Assembly: GCA_009773765.1 (NCBI GenBank)
Contig: WTWZ01000002.1
Span: forward strand, 62,001 to 126,000
Direction of reading: 5' to 3'
DNA: 64,000 bases
Source: Prolixibacteraceae bacterium
GTDB lineage: Bacteria; Bacteroidota; Bacteroidia; Bacteroidales; Prolixibacteraceae
In this document: positions 4,190 through 50,059 of the stretch, in pieces
Layout of the letters: every line of letters begins with the position of its first letter
Position numbering within the stretch: the first letter of the stretch is position 1
The notes under the pieces: model-generated
Databases searched by the model: none
What the model was told of the DNA's origin: nothing
What the model saw: the letters and a program-made list of their open reading frames with translations, nothing else
Position numbers and translations under genes: made by a program

Positions 4190-6003
4190 TTAAAAACTGT
4201 AATTAACTCCGCCAAACACAGTTGTTCCGGGCATGGTGTAATACCGGTTCACCTCGTAGGTTTGATTTAGCAAATTTTCGGCGCTGACATATAAACTTAA
4301 ATTTTTCAAAAGGTTATATGAAGCTTTGGCATTCAGTAAAGTGTAACTCTCCGAATTAACTTTGGGGGTTGGGTCGTTATCGAGATTTGAAATTTGCTGA
4401 ATGTTTGCTGTCAGTAAAAGTTTATTCAACCGGTAATTTGCATTGAGAAAAATGTGGTGTGCGGGTGTGGCATAAACCGGATTTTCCATGTGAATGTAAC
4501 TGTATGTGGCATTCAATGTCAGGTTTTTTGTTGCTTCGGCATTAATTGCAACTTCAATTCCCCTGTTATTTACCTTGCCCGAATTTTGCAAACCCTGGTT
4601 GGGAACAGTAACTATCAGATTATCGCCATTAAGCGAATAAACTGTAAGTTCAGCGCTCATTTTATTGTTGAAAAAAAGCTTTGAAATTCCGGTTTCGTAG
4701 CTGATAATAGTTTCGGGATTAAGATTTGGGTTTGGCCCCCACAGAAATAATTCGCGCATTGTTGGGCTTCTGAAACCTTTCGAAACGTTGGCTTTCCAGG
4801 TTGTAACTTCTCCAAATTTCCATGCAAAACCAGCCGATGGAATCCACTGGTCACCATAAACGCTGTTGTTCTGATAACGCAACCCGGCATTCAGCGTGAG
4901 TTTTTCTGCGAAAGTTTGCTGTATAAAAAAGTACGAGCCAAACTCTGTAATTGAAGTGTCGGCAAATACAATTCCTTTACCGCCCATAGCTTTCAGGTTT
5001 TCGGCCATTCCGCCATATTGGCTGTAATCTATTCCGGCAGTCAGCGAATTTCCTTCGAAAAGATGAAGTGATTCGTAAAAATTAAGGCCAAAATTGTTAT
5101 CGACAGAATGAAACCCGTCGGTGATATCATGTTCGCCAAAATTGTAAAAAAACTTAAATGCCCCCGAAGCCTTTTCAAATTCGTTTTGCAGGGTGAAAGC
5201 GCCATAACCACGCATGATATCAATGCGCTCGCCTGGTTTTGCATTGGTAATGTCAGGGCCAGGGTCGGCAGCATTAAAAGCGGCCAGACTAAAATCGGTA
5301 GTGGCGTAAAAATGGTCGCTGAAATTGTAGCCCAATTTGATATAACCGTTGGTAATTTTGAAATCGGAATGAGGCCGGTGCCCATCGGTTTGGTCGTGGT
5401 TACCGGAAATAAAAGCGCTGAATTTGTCTTTTTTGTAACCCACCGAACCCATGTATTTCTGGGTGTTGTAAGAACCGTATGAAAAACGTGCATTCCCGTG
5501 AACGCCATCCACTGTCTGCTTTTTGGTGATAATATTGATAACGCCGCCGGACCGCGGATAACTTCCACCCGCTCGGCATCCGAGGCCACATACGAATCGG
5601 GCAGCGGGTGCCCCATAATACCCATAAACTGCGGATGCCCGTCGATGAGCATTAATACACCGGTTGTCGGGTTTCCTCCTACTCCACGGATGGAAATCTG
5701 GCCGGCAGAACCGGCGGCCACCCCAAAGCCCGTAACACCCCGCTCGGTAACAAAAAGCCCTGGTACACGCCCGTTTAAAACCGGCAGCAGCGCTGACTCG
5801 TCTGATTCTTCTATGGTTGTCCTGTTCACAACCGAAACCGACATGGGAACGTTGTTCCTGCTCACTTTTGTGGGTGTTCCTGTAACCACAACCTCTTCAA
5901 TCCTGATAGTATCGGACAGATTGAAACTGAGCTGGGCATTGGTGTTCAAAAAAAACAGGACGCCCAGAATAGATGATGTTAAAAAACCGGTGTTTATTTT
6001 CAT
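4190..6003 (-). pseudogene. TonB-dependent receptor broken by a small internal deletion
   Basis: Two overlapping frames encode one outer-membrane receptor. The first (start at 6003) has a signal peptide, a TonB-box-like IEEVVVTGTPTKVS and the plug domain through RVEVIRGPA. The second (ending at 4190) resumes with GGVINIITKKQTVDGVHG and continues through the beta barrel to a C-terminal phenylalanine (GGVNYSF). The expected conserved stretch between them (typically SVLYGSNAM) is missing, and the join near 5541-5552 shifts frame, consistent with a deletion of about 30 bases. There is no N-terminal carboxypeptidase-like domain, so it is more like BtuB/siderophore receptors than SusC. It lies downstream of a NikR-family regulator and shares an operator-like element with it. 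Confidence 0.85.
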
Positions 6004-6042
6004 ACTAATAAATTTATATGCTCGTTTTATTTTACTATTTAT

Positions 6043-6070
6043 GTGTTACTAATTACATATTTCGTGTTAC
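6043..6070 (-). promoter_or_regulatory. Candidate regulator box upstream of the TonB receptor
   Basis: A 28-base element (plus strand GTGTTACTAATT...TTCGT.TTAC) matches 22 of 28 positions with the one at 6491-6518 upstream of the NikR-like gene. Here it is bounded by two GTGTTAC copies 21 bases apart, about two helical turns. Being present at both promoters, it is a good candidate operator for the NikR-like protein. Confidence 0.55.
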
Positions 6071-6087
6071 CCTAAATTCAAAAAAAA

Positions 6088-6489
6088 TTACTGCGCCTTA
6101 CTCATTACCAGTTTCCCGTGTTCAATTCCTTTAATACTGATGAGTTTTTCCGAAATTTCGGTCAACCGTTTCGAAGGGCCTTTTACAGCAATAATTTCCA
6201 TGTAATTAACCTCATTCAGATAAAACCCCTGAACAGATAAAATCACATCGCTGTATTCAAACTGAATTTCTGACGATTTTTTAAGGATTTCGCGTTTTTG
6301 ATTATTAAAAACAAGCACAACTGCACCTGCCACAATATTGTCGCATTTCCATTTTTCTTCGGTCAGGTATTTTTCGATTAAATGACGAATGGCCTGCGAA
6401 CGGTTGGCAAACTGATTGTCGGCCACAAATTCGTCGAGGTCTTTCAGCAAATCTTCGTCTAACGAAACTCCAAACCTGGAAACAGACAT
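6088..6489 (-). CDS. NikR-family ribbon-helix-helix regulator lacking the nickel ligands
   Basis: The 133 aa protein has the NikR architecture: an N-terminal ribbon-helix-helix DNA-binding domain (SRFGVSLDEDLLKDLDEF, then NRSQAIRHLIEKYL) and a C-terminal ACT-like NikR domain ending IKGIEHGKLV. In a gapless alignment to E. coli NikR the four high-affinity nickel ligands are replaced: H76 by F, H87 by G, H89 by Y and C95 by Y (segment IQFEYSDVILSVQGFYLNEV). It therefore probably does not sense nickel in the known way. It sits directly upstream of the TonB receptor, with matching 28-base elements at both promoters, so autoregulation and control of the receptor are likely. Confidence 0.85.
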   Translation of the reverse strand: MSVSRFGVSLDEDLLKDLDEFVADNQFANRSQAIRHLIEKYLTEEKWKCDNIVAGAVVLVFNNQKREILKKSSEIQFEYSDVILSVQGFYLNEVNYMEIIAVKGPSKRLTEISEKLISIKGIEHGKLVMSKAQ

Positions 6490-42969: not shown

Positions 42970-44456
42970 GGTGTTCTGTTTCTTAAAACCATATCTATGT
43001 AAATGGCAGGTTCAATCAGTTGGTTAGCGGCTTCCATTGTATAAGTAAAAACCGTTGCCGCAAATATTCCCATCAAAACTGAAGCAGTTGCAAGAATTGC
43101 CAGTGGCACATAATCGGCCCAATTCAATTTGATTGATTCCTGGTTTTCGTGATTTTCAGGCTGTTTTTTCAGAAATGCCTCGTTCCAGATTTTAATCATT
43201 GAATACAGGGTTAAAAGACTGGTCAGCAGTGCAACAGTTGTAATGATGTAGCTACCACTTTCAATCCCCGCCTTAATCAGCATAAATTTGGCAAAAAACC
43301 CCGATAAAGGAGGAACACCAGCCAGTGCGAAAGCCGGTACAATAAACAACACGGCAAGCAGCGGGTTTTGTTTGTACAATCCGCCCACTTCTTTCAGGTG
43401 GAAAGAGCCTTTGGTTTTGGCAATCATCCCCGAGGCAATGAAAGCGCCTGTTTTGGCAATCATATTGTGCAGTGTAAAAAAAACCGCTCCGGCAATGGCC
43501 AAAGGGGTAAAAATACCAAGCCCCATAATCATATAACCTATCTGGCTGATAATGTGGTACGAGAGGATCCTTCGGGTTTCATAATACGATGCCGCTGCCA
43601 TTCCGCCAGTTACCATTGTAAGGCCGGCAACAATCAACAGCAGGTTATGCCAGAATTGCTGGTCGTGAACAAAAAAGAGCGTAAAGAACCTGATTAAAGT
43701 GTAAACTCCGACTTTGGTAAGCAGTCCGGCAAATAGCGATGTTATGGCAATATTTGGGGTATGATATGAAGAAGGTAACCAGAAAAACAGGGGAAAAACT
43801 GCCGCTTTGATTCCAAATGCCACGAAAAACAAAATTGATGAAGTGTTCATCAGCAGGGCCTGCCCGTCATTTTTGAGGATTTCGGCCAAGTGGGCCATGT
43901 TGAGCGTTCCTGTTTTTCCGTAGAGTAATCCAAGTCCGGCCAGGAACAGTAATGAACCCAACAAATTGAGGGCGAGGTATTTTATTCCACCTTCCAGTTG
44001 TTCCTTTTTTTTGCCCATTGTTATTAAAACGAACGATGAAATGAGCATTACTTCGAACCAAACATAAAGGTTGAAAACATCGCCAGTGGTGAATGCGCCA
44101 TTCATTCCCATAGTAAGGGTGAAAAAGAAAAAGTAAAAACGGGGCAATGGAAAATCATCAGGCAGAAAACGGATGGAGAACAGCGAAACAGCAATCAGGA
44201 TTAGCGATGAAACCATCAGCATCAGTGCGCTCAGGTAATCTACAACCAGCACAATGCCGAAGGGCGCTTCCCATCCGCCAACATTCAGGGTTAAAATCCC
44301 GCTGGTTTTTAACCGAAAAAAAAGCGCCAGCGAAACCACGAAAATGGCCAAACTTCCGAGCGGTCCTACCCAGCGGCAGGTTTTTGGCGTGCGGAAAACC
44401 AGCAAGCTGATGGCCAGCGCGAACGGAATCAAAATGGGCATTGCAACTATGGTCAT
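42966..44456 (-). CDS. mnhD: Mrp/Mnh Na+/H+ antiporter subunit D (NuoN-like)
   Basis: The 496 aa, ~14-TM protein belongs to the proton-translocating NuoL/M/N family: LYVWFEVMLISSFVLITMG with the key TM5 Glu, AFGIKAAVFPLFFWLPSSYH with the TM7 Lys, and HIISQIGYMIMGLG. It forms one of the ion-translocating channels of the antiporter. It overlaps mnhC by 4 bases. Confidence 0.94.
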   Translation of the reverse strand: MTIVAMPILIPFALAISLLVFRTPKTCRWVGPLGSLAIFVVSLALFFRLKTSGILTLNVGGWEAPFGIVLVVDYLSALMLMVSSLILIAVSLFSIRFLPDDFPLPRFYFFFFTLTMGMNGAFTTGDVFNLYVWFEVMLISSFVLITMGKKKEQLEGGIKYLALNLLGSLLFLAGLGLLYGKTGTLNMAHLAEILKNDGQALLMNTSSILFFVAFGIKAAVFPLFFWLPSSYHTPNIAITSLFAGLLTKVGVYTLIRFFTLFFVHDQQFWHNLLLIVAGLTMVTGGMAAASYYETRRILSYHIISQIGYMIMGLGIFTPLAIAGAVFFTLHNMIAKTGAFIASGMIAKTKGSFHLKEVGGLYKQNPLLAVLFIVPAFALAGVPPLSGFFAKFMLIKAGIESGSYIITTVALLTSLLTLYSMIKIWNEAFLKKQPENHENQESIKLNWADYVPLAILATASVLMGIFAATVFTYTMEAANQLIEPAIYIDMVLRNRTP

Positions 44457-44803
44457 TTTTGTGAATCGGTTTGTTTTAACTGGTCCAAATCATCGGTTCC
44501 GGTAACTTCGAAGAATTTGTATTTCAGGGCGAGGATAAACACCACCATGCCCAGCCCGATTACGATTGCGGTTAAAACCAGCGCCTGTGGCAGCGGGTCG
44601 GCCAGTTGTGCAGAGTTTGTTGTTGTGCCGTCAACAAATGCGGGGCTTCCGTGGATGAGCCCTGCCGAGAGAAAAACCAGCAGGTTGGTGGCATTGCCCA
44701 TAAAAATTATCCCGATGATAAATTTCAGAATACTCCTTCGCAGCAGCATGTAAACACCTGCCGTGTATAAAATGCCAACTAATATTGCCAGTACTACTTC
44801 CAT
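44453..44803 (-). CDS. mnhC: Mrp/Mnh Na+/H+ antiporter subunit C (NuoK-like)
   Basis: The 116 aa three-TM protein matches MnhC/NuoK (GVYMLLRRSILKFIIGIIFM, NLLVFLSAGL, LADPLPQALVLTAIVIG). It overlaps mnhB by 10 bases. Confidence 0.93.
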   Translation of the reverse strand: MEVVLAILVGILYTAGVYMLLRRSILKFIIGIIFMGNATNLLVFLSAGLIHGSPAFVDGTTTNSAQLADPLPQALVLTAIVIGLGMVVFILALKYKFFEVTGTDDLDQLKQTDSQK

Positions 44804-45219
44804 ATTTTTTCGTAAGATAATGAAAACAAAAACAATAAAGTAACTCCAATTACCGTAAAGAATACGCCAATATCGAACAGAAAAGGGGTGCCAAATTTAA
44901 ATCCTTCCGTAAAAGGAAAAGGAATTGTAAACCAAACACCTTGCATTATAGCAGTTTTCAAAAACACGCCAGGCCAGATGCTTATAAAAATAAGGATTAA
45001 CCCAATCCCCATATAACCTTCGGGTTTTATTTTTATCTCTTTTTTAAGGAGTTCGGGGGTAAAGGCAAAACCTTTGTACGCCAGCGAAAGCCCGGCAAGT
45101 AAACCACCAATAAACCCGCCGCCCGGATAATTGTGGCCGCGAATTAAAATGATGACCGAAAAAATCACCAGCAGCCATCTTACATATTTCGATGCAATTT
45201 GCAGAATTACTGAATTCAT
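44794..45219 (-). CDS. mnhB: Mrp/Mnh Na+/H+ antiporter subunit B
   Basis: The 141 aa four-TM protein carries the MnhB motif RGHNYPGGGFIGGLLAG and GTPFLFDIGVFFTVIGV. It overlaps mnhA by 4 bases. Confidence 0.93.
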   Translation of the reverse strand: MNSVILQIASKYVRWLLVIFSVIILIRGHNYPGGGFIGGLLAGLSLAYKGFAFTPELLKKEIKIKPEGYMGIGLILIFISIWPGVFLKTAIMQGVWFTIPFPFTEGFKFGTPFLFDIGVFFTVIGVTLLFLFSLSYEKIWK

Positions 45220-47522
45220 GTTTTTGGTTTTTTTGAGTTTAATAAAACCGAAACGCCAAGCGCAGCCACAACCAATACTGTCACTTCGCCTAATGTGTCA
45301 AGCGCCCTGAAATCGACAAGGATTACATTGACAACGTTTTTACCAAAAGCTTTATCATAACTGTTGGCCATAAAATACTCTGAGATAGGGTTATTAAAAT
45401 CAACATTAATGGCTTTAATAGCTACAAGTGTCATTGCGCTGCCAAAAATAGATGCAACAATTAAGTCGCGTATTTTGGTTGCTTTTGCGGAAAGTCTGGC
45501 AAAAACAGGAAGCCGCTGCAAAATTAGCATAAACATAACAACCATAAGCGTTTCGGCCAGAATTTGAGTGATTGCCAGGTCAACGGCACTGTAATACAGA
45601 AAAATCAGGGACAGGCCGTAACCGGTAACACCCATTGCAATAATGGCCGCAATCCGGGAGCGTGTAAGCACGGTAAACAACGTGGCCAAAACAATTATCA
45701 GAACCAAACCGGAGATGTAAAATGGTTGAAAAGTGATTGATGTTTCCAAATGCCAGCCTCGTGTAAAATACAATTGCAGCCAAAGCAGGGCGGCAGTAAA
45801 AAGTATGATTGTGAGTATGTAATACCGGTGGTAACCGTGTTGCATCACCTTTGTTTTACTAACTGAAATGGCAACAAATTTTTCGAGCGCATAGGAAAAA
45901 ACCTCCGGGAACCTGACAGGGAAAATTATCTTGTTAATTTTTCGCCACTTTTCCTCAATCCAATCTTTTTTAATCAGAATATATGAAAGTAATGCCCCCG
46001 CTGCAACTGTAGCCAGGCTCAAAAAAAGTACCAGGTTGAAACCGTGCCAGAGTTTGAGTTCCGCTTTAACCGGTTCAGCATAAATAACACTCATAGCAGG
46101 ATCAATAATCCATTTGCCCAGAAAGTTGGGAGAAATTCCAAAAATAAGGCTGAGCAAAACCAACAATCCCGGCCCCAAAACAAACATCACATTTTTAATT
46201 TTGGAAACATTGTAGCTGTTTTTTGGTTTTCCGAGAAATACTTTAAAAATCAAGCGCATGGATACTGCAAACATGAAAATATTGGAGATTACCCCAAAAA
46301 TAAAAATCAGCGACCCAAAACCCGGCGACTGCACTTTGGCCTCGTAAATCAGCTCTTTGCCCAGAAAACCGAGCATTGGCGGCAATCCGGCCATCGAAAG
46401 CAGTGCAAGCAGTGCTATACCAAAAGTGATGGGGAACGATTTCTTTAAACCGCCAAGCTCGTTCAGGTCGCGTGTCCCGGTTTTCTTTTCAATAAAACCG
46501 GCAACCATAAAGAGCGAGGCTTTGTAAAATGCGTGGATGAAAAGGAACAAAACGGCTGCTTTTATCGAAAGCCTGGTGTCGATACCGATAAGCAGCACCA
46601 GTATTCCAAGCGCATTGATGGTGGTGTAAGCTAAAATGATTTTTAAATCGGTTTGGGTAATGGCAAAATAAGAGCCAATAAGCATGGTTATAACGCCAAA
46701 CAGCGGAACGATAAAAGTCCATTCGGCAGTTCCGCCAAGCGCGGGACTTAACCTTGCCAGCAGAAAAACGCCAGCCTTAACCATGGTTGCAGAATGCAGG
46801 TAAGCGCTCACGGGCGCGGGCGCCTGCATGGCTTCCGGTAGCCAGAAATGAAACGGGAACTGCGCCGATTTGGTAAAAACCCCAAGTAAAATCAATAACA
46901 GTCCCGGTAAGTACAAACTGCTTTCTTTTATTTTTTCTGAACCTGCAATCCAATCGTTAAGCGAATAACTGTCAACCACACTTCCAATCAAAAGGATGCC
47001 TGCCAAAAGCCCAAGCCCTCCAAAAAAGGTAATTACCAGGGATTGAAAAGCGGCTTTTCGGGCTACTTCTTTTTCATGAAAAAAGCTGATTAAAAAAAAG
47101 GAGAGCACAGTTGTAAATTCCCAGAAAATAAAAAGCTGAATTAAGTTGGACGACATTACCAAACCCAACATGGCGCCGCTGAACAGGAATAAAAAAAAGA
47201 AGAATTTATCGGTGTAATCATAGCTTTTCATGTACGAATGGGCGTAAAGAAAAACTGAGGCGCCAATTCCGCTAACCAGAAGTGCAAAAGCAAGGCTTAA
47301 CCCATCGAGCAGGAATTCGATATTCAGCCCCAACTCAGGAATCCAGTGCGCAAAAAGTATTATCGGTTTTTCAGCCGAAATGAACTGAATTTTACTTGCG
47401 AACCAGATAAAAGCAGCCAAATGCACAACTGCAATTAAAACACCTTTTTGTAATTTTATTGACTTTGGCAGTAAAAAAATCCCAACCGCCAGTAAAAAAT
47501 ATATGATTAATAAATTCAGCAT
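45216..47522 (-). CDS. mnhA: Mrp/Mnh Na+/H+ antiporter subunit A (NuoL-like)
   Basis: The 768 aa polytopic protein is the large NuoL-like subunit (WEFTTVLSFFLISFFHEKEV, SAQFPFHFWLPEAMQAPAPV, SAYLHSATMVKAGVFLLARL) with the C-terminal extension of MrpA (AVDLAITQILAETLMVVMFM, FRALDTLGEVTVLVVAALG). It is the first gene of the operon A-B-C-D-E-F-G. The complex exports Na+ against H+ and supports pH and salt tolerance, which fits a marine or brackish host (inference). A universal stress protein gene lies just upstream on the same strand. Confidence 0.95.
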   Translation of the reverse strand: MLNLLIIYFLLAVGIFLLPKSIKLQKGVLIAVVHLAAFIWFASKIQFISAEKPIILFAHWIPELGLNIEFLLDGLSLAFALLVSGIGASVFLYAHSYMKSYDYTDKFFFFLFLFSGAMLGLVMSSNLIQLFIFWEFTTVLSFFLISFFHEKEVARKAAFQSLVITFFGGLGLLAGILLIGSVVDSYSLNDWIAGSEKIKESSLYLPGLLLILLGVFTKSAQFPFHFWLPEAMQAPAPVSAYLHSATMVKAGVFLLARLSPALGGTAEWTFIVPLFGVITMLIGSYFAITQTDLKIILAYTTINALGILVLLIGIDTRLSIKAAVLFLFIHAFYKASLFMVAGFIEKKTGTRDLNELGGLKKSFPITFGIALLALLSMAGLPPMLGFLGKELIYEAKVQSPGFGSLIFIFGVISNIFMFAVSMRLIFKVFLGKPKNSYNVSKIKNVMFVLGPGLLVLLSLIFGISPNFLGKWIIDPAMSVIYAEPVKAELKLWHGFNLVLFLSLATVAAGALLSYILIKKDWIEEKWRKINKIIFPVRFPEVFSYALEKFVAISVSKTKVMQHGYHRYYILTIILFTAALLWLQLYFTRGWHLETSITFQPFYISGLVLIIVLATLFTVLTRSRIAAIIAMGVTGYGLSLIFLYYSAVDLAITQILAETLMVVMFMLILQRLPVFARLSAKATKIRDLIVASIFGSAMTLVAIKAINVDFNNPISEYFMANSYDKAFGKNVVNVILVDFRALDTLGEVTVLVVAALGVSVLLNSKKPKT

Positions 47523-48535: not shown

Positions 48536-50059
48536 CTACCCAAACCACCCCCGGGTTCTTCCCTGCAACTTGTTCAGCACATCTATTGTGATATTAACAT
48601 CGTTTACTATCTGAAAATCGAACATTCCAACACAAATAAAATCGGCGCCGTTTTTAAATGCCCAGTTAAATCCGTCTTCGGGTGTAATTGATCCGGCAGC
48701 CAACACTTTGAACCCCATAACCGGAACCTTTGTGCGGTTTACAAACTCTACTGTTTTATCGGGGAACAAACAGAAAATATTGTCGTGGAAACGGTTGTGA
48801 TCGAGGTGACGTTCACCATCAACCTCAAACGGAATGCGGTTTTCGCGCGGGTGGGCGCTCCAGTAATTATCATGATGAAACGTCTGCATATAATAATCGG
48901 GTATAATACCCTGTTCCTCGCAGGCAATTAAAGCATCAATGGTGTGCGCGCCCAGCCCGGCTGTGATTTTGTGGCTTCTTATTTTTTCGAGCATCATGTC
49001 AATCACCTCCATTTTATTGTCGCGCACCAGCCAGTCGCACCAGTTTCCCTGTACCTGGATAACATCCATCCCCCCATCGGCAGCTTTATTGATATTCACA
49101 AAATAATCCTTCTTTTCCATATCGGGCGCCACCTGTATAATGATTTTAATTTTGCTGCCGGTCATTTTTTTATACTTCAGCATGGTATCCATCGTGGGGA
49201 ATCCGATATTTATTGAATTAATCCCTGCTTTTTCGGCCAGTATCAGCGTTTCGAAGATTTTCTTTTCGGTATTGTAGGCACGGAAAAGCGAAGGGACATA
49301 AATCAGGTCGCGCGAGTGTGCCCACCCGCCAATGAGGTTTCCACCCAATATTAACCTGCTGAATTCATGCCCGCCTATTTTTCCTTTCGGAAGTTCACCT
49401 TTCAGTTCTTTAATATCGGCCCCGCCAATTTGAATGGTTGCCCCCGAAAGCGTATCGACGCCATATTCGCGGGCTTCGCGAAAAGCGCCCAGGCCAATTA
49501 CGCCAAGCGCCGGAATTGTTGCCAGATTTTTCAATGCTTCACGACGGGAATGCAGGTTGGCACTTTTCTCCGGTCCGCTTGTTTCAGGTGTTCCCTTTTT
49601 CAACTGAAACCATGTATGGGCATACAGTCCGTAACCCTTATCCTTTATCAGAAAAATAACCAGCAGCGCCAATGTTTCGATGAGGTTTTTATTGACGATA
49701 TAAAGATTTCCCTCTGCAGCGCCGAATAAATTGCCACCAAAAGGAGGATAGGCGAAATAGTACAACATCAGTAAAATCATGCCCGAAACGGATGAAAGAC
49801 GGATAAAAATGCCGAGGAAAAGGCCGAGGCCAATCAAAACCAGTCCGGCCATATTTACCGGATCTATAATTTTCATCAAACCCTCAGAAGCTGCCATCCA
49901 CTGATAGAATCCTGCGAACGGGCCAGTGGCATTGGCCAGATAACCCGCAGCGCTCCAGTTAGGTATTAGAAGTTTTGAAATGCCTTCGTATAAAAAATGC
50001 CAGCCAATGGCAACCCTGAAAAGGGTAATTGTTAGTTTTTTCCAGTTCCAGTCTTTCAT
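48536..50059 (-). CDS. DoxX membrane domain fused through a Tat-like segment to an aldo/keto-reductase-like TIM barrel
   Basis: The 507 aa protein has a four-TM DoxX domain at about 1-150 (TLFRVAIGWHFLYEGISKLL). A cytoplasm-side linker holds HSRREALKNLATIPALGVIG (about 170-190), which looks like an internal twin-arginine signal anchor. A C-terminal TIM-barrel domain near 220-500 follows (LILGGNLIGGWAHSRDLIYV, AGINSINIGFPTMDTM, GLGAHTIDALIACEEQGIIP). With four TM helices before it, the RR motif would be cytoplasmic and the barrel could be exported folded by Tat. The catalytic role is unknown. The gene looks intact and is upstream of the stress protein. Confidence 0.75.
   Translation of the reverse strand: MKDWNWKKLTITLFRVAIGWHFLYEGISKLLIPNWSAAGYLANATGPFAGFYQWMAASEGLMKIIDPVNMAGLVLIGLGLFLGIFIRLSSVSGMILLMLYYFAYPPFGGNLFGAAEGNLYIVNKNLIETLALLVIFLIKDKGYGLYAHTWFQLKKGTPETSGPEKSANLHSRREALKNLATIPALGVIGLGAFREAREYGVDTLSGATIQIGGADIKELKGELPKGKIGGHEFSRLILGGNLIGGWAHSRDLIYVPSLFRAYNTEKKIFETLILAEKAGINSINIGFPTMDTMLKYKKMTGSKIKIIIQVAPDMEKKDYFVNINKAADGGMDVIQVQGNWCDWLVRDNKMEVIDMMLEKIRSHKITAGLGAHTIDALIACEEQGIIPDYYMQTFHHDNYWSAHPRENRIPFEVDGERHLDHNRFHDNIFCLFPDKTVEFVNRTKVPVMGFKVLAAGSITPEDGFNWAFKNGADFICVGMFDFQIVNDVNITIDVLNKLQGRTRGWFG

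Follow-up and report, generated by a model that had tools for sequence, protein, structure and literature searches.

The window analyzed here, a 64,000-nt stretch of genomic DNA from a Prolixibacteraceae bacterium, encodes on its minus strand a protein in which a DoxX membrane domain is followed by a twin-arginine (Tat) anchor, a predicted flavinylation motif, and a barrel predicted to have the fold of aldo/keto reductases (AKRs) (Table 1). The open reading frame (ORF) is a real gene and a member of a conserved family. It is not a chance ORF, because full-length copies with 71 to 79% identity occur in most genomes of the same genus and further relatives extend to other families, orders, and phyla. 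Among them are proteins from Tangfeifania, Mariniphaga, Draconibacterium, Maribellus, and Parabacteroides distasonis, as well as from records labeled Planctomycetota and Puniceicoccales. The family is conserved in Bacteroidales and has a few members in other phyla; barrel searches across the phylum returned almost nothing outside the order, and a plasmid search returned one DoxX-family match and nothing else. Since most relatives belong to one order, the counts given below are not independent events.

Table 1. Coordinates of the gene and its features in the window
Feature	Position	Strand	Basis
Complete gene (507 aa) with DoxX, a Tat anchor, the flavinylation motif, and an AKR-fold barrel	48536..50059	-	ORF list; full-length homologs
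DoxX domain with its four transmembrane helices, residues 1-142	49634..50059	-	Pfam DoxX; AlphaFold2 helices
Cytoplasmic loop, residues 143-171, positively charged, variable	49547..49633	-	Charge count; alignment length variation
Twin-arginine motif SRREALK, residues 171-177	49529..49549	-	RR conservation
Fifth transmembrane helix/uncleaved Tat anchor, residues ~174-198	49466..49540	-	AlphaFold2 helix 172-199; comparable anchors on Gfo/Idh/MocA proteins encoded beside DoxX
DTLSGAT, residues 202-208, a predicted flavinylation motif for ApbE with Thr208 as the expected FMN site	49436..49456	-	Motif conservation; PMC12052999
Barrel of AKR fold, (alpha/beta)8, residues 213-507; predicted catalytic domain outside the cytoplasm	48539..49423	-	AlphaFold2, Foldseek, profile comparison

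The source genome itself encodes a paralog that is 44% identical (L126:3748-5346, G000:C99). Damaged copies were also seen. In one relative (G008, L028:2835-3930), the gene is broken near residue 450 by an insertion with transposase-like ORFs, and two Proteiniphilum-type contigs (L068 and L069, ~5998-6318) retain no more of the family than its C-terminal 106 residues (81% identity), probably as a gene remnant.

Membrane topology and the twin-arginine anchor

DoxX is the sole domain that Pfam recognizes in the ORF (residues 12 to 100, 25.6 bits, above the gathering score of 23.6). An AlphaFold2 model built from 47 aligned sequences places long helices at residues 6-31, 59-82, 86-103, and 124-137, then a further helix spanning 172-199 and, after it, an (alpha/beta)8 barrel, with low confidence in the tether between anchor and barrel. 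Modeled alone from 40 sequences, the barrel is predicted with high confidence (pLDDT 92.8, pTM 0.91). The layout read in the first-pass annotation, a DoxX domain followed by an RR anchor and a barrel, is borne out by the ORF, the Pfam match, and the model.

Lysine and arginine residues number three at the N-terminus, none in the first outer loop, one in the inner turn, and none in the second outer loop. Another six fall within residues 140 to 173, the loop that includes the RR pair. This charge pattern fits an N-in/C-in DoxX domain with the RR pair on the cytoplasmic side. Together with the AlphaFold2 helices, it puts an even number of N-in helices ahead of the pair and one behind, and the earlier proposal that DoxX leaves the chain in the cytoplasm is upheld.

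R172 and R173 do not vary across the 47 aligned rows, where they mostly fall within S-R-R-E-[A/V]-[L/I]-K-N-L, and the pair is present in each of 82 distinct DoxX fusions; conservation of the pair, on which the first-pass annotation had staked its Tat proposal, is thus complete in both sets. Residues 171 to 189 of the protein read SRREALKNLATIPALGVIG, and the Tat signal model TIGR01409 aligns with residues 171 to 190 at a score below its cutoff. The annotation had also likened the protein to polytopic proteins that use both Sec and Tat. The likeness holds for four transmembrane helices, an RR pair, a fifth helix, and a folded C-terminal domain; it is less clear for the secondary hallmarks of those proteins, a last helix of low hydrophobicity and an excess of positive charge after it (PMC5449189). 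On a rough hydrophobicity scale, the last helix ranks lowest in 17 of 47 sequences and is about equal to helices 1 and 4; downstream of it, K/R about balance D/E, with no net positive charge.

Homologs of the barrel that lack DoxX provide independent support for its export by Tat, as judged from their signals. Ordinary N-terminal Tat signals were recognized by eye in 11 of 12 such proteins, for example, MKPLKTDRRSFLKSSIALSAGSALALGARASQA in L136 and SRRTFVKGSLAGAALALGAGTGVAAE in L154, the exception being L139; 11 of the 12 come from the planctomycete search, and several stem from genomes of unknown completeness. On a maximum-likelihood tree of the barrel, which carries long-branch warnings, DoxX-fused and DoxX-less forms interleave, with at least five changes forced by well-supported branches.

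Lone DoxX genes tell a similar story from the other half of the fusion. At 17 of 17 loci fetched for this purpose (L108-L118 and L120-L125; e.g., L109:2428-4633 and L118:2518-4656), they directly adjoin a gene whose product starts with a similar RR anchor, and the four partner genes tested all encode Gfo/Idh/MocA oxidoreductases, in which the flavinylation motif described below was not found. ORFs of ~700 aa that we had considered as DoxX fused to another domain were set aside; these loci hold separate, adjacent genes for DoxX and a Tat-anchored Gfo/Idh/MocA protein. The pair looks like a widespread two-gene system in the order. Both halves of the fusion are therefore tied elsewhere to Tat-exported oxidoreductases, and the comparison strongly suggests that Tat exports the barrel.

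A predicted flavinylation motif in the tether

Directly behind the anchor, ~30 residues past the RR pair, lies the sequence D202-T-L-S-G-A-T208, which had escaped the first-pass annotation. It matches the minimal motif of the flavin transferase ApbE, D-x-x-[S/T]-G-A-[S/T], for which seven residues suffice (PMC12052999), and no FMN-binding domain surrounds it. The strict motif is present in 74 of the 82 DoxX fusions. The other eight have near variants (NAVSGA[TS], DGMTSAT, DAMSSAT, DGLSSAT, DANTSAT, and DALSGST), each with one substitution among the D, G, and A positions and with the final Thr/Ser retained. The D, G, A, and T are invariant in the 47 rows, while the linker around them varies, and the paralog in the same genome keeps the motif as DAVTGAS. 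Among other ORFs of the same loci, the background frequency is 2 in 699,739 residues. The motif is absent from all 12 DoxX-less homologs, the nearest sequence being DTVTAAT in L137. It thus goes with DoxX, as expected if the FMN connects to that domain. FMN is predicted on Thr208, and the motif points to covalent FMN instead of NADPH as the likely cofactor.

The source genome has one copy of apbE, at G000:C18:34729-35559, and encodes TatC. ApbE was found in all 11 other carrier genomes, one match being weaker, and TatC was not found in two carriers of unknown completeness (G825 and G826); apbE is not adjacent to the family gene in the loci with listed genes. Both TatC and ApbE are widespread enough in the order that their presence does not discriminate and is weak evidence for the model.

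Other proteins of the source genome also carry the motif. One of 511 aa with a seeming signal peptide (L188:1488-3020, G000:C42) closes with the sequence DALSGASKIKK, apparently a flavinylation tag at its extreme C-terminus; ApbE is known to modify tags at protein ends well (PMC12052999). Further motif-bearing proteins lie at L174, L181, L186, and L197, and the carriers in this genome include an FMN_bind protein (DGISGAT), a probable NqrB (DGYSGAT), and two proteins with apparent signal peptides (DAITGAT and DALTGAT). The single apbE likely serves several substrates.

Fold, active site, and neighbors of the barrel

Sequence searches of Pfam, NCBIfam, and the PDB yielded no noteworthy match for the barrel of the ORF. 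Pfam and NCBIfam searches over all barrel members gave nothing above cutoff (the Pfam model Aldo_ket_red picked up 2 of the 34 members, with a best E value of 0.16), and PDB queries using either the protein or profiles found no convincing relative. Structure comparison was more informative. The top Foldseek match is the putative AKR PA4992 (TM score of 0.70 by target), and further matches include other AKRs, among them L-galactose dehydrogenase. Profile comparison against ten AKRs, of which nine come from the source genome, gave an alignment along the barrel with 93.6% probability (E = 2.1e-7). Other candidates fell away: weak PDB matches to phosphoheptose isomerase and assorted barrels were taken as chance; ribulose-phosphate epimerase, GmhA, and IMP dehydrogenase also matched weakly, but the structure search and profile comparison put AKRs first; and the similarity to FMN-binding barrels (lactate oxidase and others) dropped below that to AKRs with a better barrel model.

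The catalytic tetrad of AKRs, Asp-Tyr-Lys-His, is not conserved in the family. At the positions assigned from the profile alignment and strand order, the Asp is mostly N, Q, I, or L and never D, the Lys is Q, D, or C and never K, the His is mostly Q and sometimes H, and there is no conserved Tyr. Residues that are invariant in 40 diverse members include N241, H248, H372, D388, K451, D473, and G478, the first five of which mark a putative active site unlike that of AKRs. The description of the domain as aldo/keto reductase-like is therefore right as to fold and wrong as to active site: this is an AKR-fold family with an active site of its own, and classing it as an AKR enzyme is wrong. An NADPH-using AKR is unlikely because the tetrad is not conserved.

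A more distant clade of barrels on the tree mostly lacks signals and is probably cytoplasmic. Its members from the planctomycete search (L141-L144 and L147), ~25% identical and without a signal, retain N241, H248, H372, D388, and K451 and belong to no Pfam family that would name them.

No conserved neighbor gene stands beside the family, and carbohydrate genes recur near its members. The paralog in the source genome begins no more than 2 bases from where a GH97 gene ends, and the gene after it has a Rha78A-type domain. One relative has Gfo/Idh/MocA genes on both sides, another is near a 3-keto-disaccharide hydrolase gene, and a planctomycete copy lies upstream of a sulfatase gene and two mutually similar-looking genes. 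Periplasmic 3-keto-glycoside chemistry with DUF1080 hydrolases is known (PMC9007349), and this precedent and the neighbors together suggest a sugar-type substrate. In P. distasonis (L059:3-7572), the gene comes after ORFs that by eye are SusC-like and SusD-like, and the ORFs ahead of it also encode a Tat-signal protein similar to the dihydrodipicolinate synthase family (by eye; no Pfam hit at 1e-5). In the window, a universal stress protein gene and genes resembling by eye an Mrp-type multisubunit cation/proton antiporter lie downstream on the minus strand (44453-47522); an operon with them was set aside, since the conserved neighbors of the relatives include no such gene.

Proposed mechanism and comparison with known systems

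We propose, with about even confidence, that the protein is a membrane-anchored extracytoplasmic flavoenzyme of new architecture. The four DoxX helices would be inserted N-in/C-in by Sec. Tat would then recognize SRREALK in the cytoplasmic loop and export the folded barrel, leaving residues 174 to 198 as a fifth membrane anchor, and periplasmic ApbE would put FMN on Thr208 in the short tether from membrane to barrel. The barrel may perform redox chemistry on a carbohydrate-like substrate without the AKR tetrad, with the tethered FMN shuttling electrons between barrel and quinone pool via DoxX, preferably from an oxidized substrate to quinone. The FMN could plausibly stand in for NADPH, a cofactor that an enzyme exported from the cytoplasm would be unable to recharge there. 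The architecture, the conservation of RR pair and motif, the barrel fold, and the missing tetrad rest on sequence and predicted fold; we infer the quinone-linked electron flow through DoxX, the sugar-like substrate, and the direction.

Other accounts deserve weighing. In one, the protein is exported by Tat and anchored by DoxX but not flavinylated: NAD(P) or a metal would be loaded in the cytoplasm, as in Tat-exported Gfo/Idh/MocA proteins, DoxX would be an anchor or partner, and the motif a structural tether. The pairing of DoxX with Gfo/Idh/MocA proteins in which the motif was not found speaks for this, as do the eight imperfect motifs and the invariant His, Asp, and Lys, which could bind metal or substrate. 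It must contend with an exact ApbE motif whose D, G, A, and T do not vary in an otherwise variable linker, and which is kept in a 44% identical paralog and gone where DoxX is gone; we consider this account doubtful, if the most serious competitor. That the same flavinylated architecture works as a reductase, passing quinol electrons via DoxX and FMN to an extracytoplasmic substrate in the manner of the flavinylated fumarate and urocanate reductases, seems improbable. Known flavinylated extracytosolic enzymes so wired are often reductases (PMC8238504), but the glycan, Gfo/Idh/MocA, and 3-keto-disaccharide hydrolase neighbors suit sugar oxidation no worse.

Two further accounts concern export. 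Sec alone might insert the last helix and export the barrel, with the RR pair merely setting topology. The hydrophobicity of that helix, close to that of helices 1 and 4, would agree, but the arginines are invariant although Lys would serve topology equally, and the DoxX-less homologs bear Tat signals, so this reading is very unlikely. We give least credence to a barrel that stays inside behind a hydrophobic segment that does not span the membrane. In its favor are the shortness and no more than moderate hydrophobicity of the segment and the absence of a signal in the distant clade; against this, near relatives are Tat targeted, and the flavinylation motif would be beyond the reach of periplasmic ApbE.

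The extracytoplasmic flavoenzyme thus remains our preferred reading; the DoxX-barrel protein, probably exported by Tat, looks like an uncharacterized enzyme for redox chemistry outside the inner membrane, probably on sugars and flavin wired to the membrane. More tentatively, an AKR-fold enzyme that has lost the tetrad and probably NADPH, carries ApbE-attached FMN, and is delivered by Tat and wired by DoxX to quinone may represent a new class of periplasmic (sugar) oxidoreductase and a new Sec/Tat family, with DoxX as a general redox partner, fused or adjacent, of Tat-exported oxidoreductases. If so, it would explain possible NAD-independent sugar redox chemistry outside the inner membrane in Bacteroidales.

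Dual Sec/Tat targeting has been shown experimentally for five-helix proteins, the MoCo protein Sco3746 and the MLMS-1 polyferredoxin, and is also known from actinobacterial Rieske proteins; the main text of that study does not name the DoxX-barrel family (PMC5449189). The ORF shares with the five-helix proteins the four helices, the conserved RR pair right before helix 5, and a folded domain, here predicted to be extracytoplasmic, and differs in its DoxX membrane domain and AKR-fold C-terminal domain. It would add one more family to the short list of proteins built jointly by Sec and Tat. ApbE-flavinylated extracytosolic redox proteins include NqrC/RnfG, DUF2271, DUF3570, and fumarate reductase-like proteins, and neither DoxX nor aldo/keto proteins appear in the main texts of the two surveys that cover them (PMC8238504, PMC11334425). 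Common ground with them is the exact motif, a predicted extracytoplasmic redox protein, and an ApbE-bearing genome. In the ORF, by contrast, the motif sits in a membrane tether before an AKR-fold barrel, outside FMN_bind or any other known flavinylated domain, which would make it a new kind of ApbE substrate. Aldo/keto reductases such as PA4992 and L-galactose dehydrogenase share with the barrel its fold and an end-to-end profile similarity, whereas the barrel lacks a conserved tetrad and a Pfam AKR match over the cutoff and is predicted to lie outside the cytoplasm. The DoxX family includes the DoxD part of thiosulfate:quinone oxidoreductase. The ORF has the same four-helix membrane unit, above the Pfam cutoff, but here DoxX is fused to or paired with Tat-anchored oxidoreductases and would use quinone, a role as membrane redox partner of exported oxidoreductases for a domain that has been an orphan.
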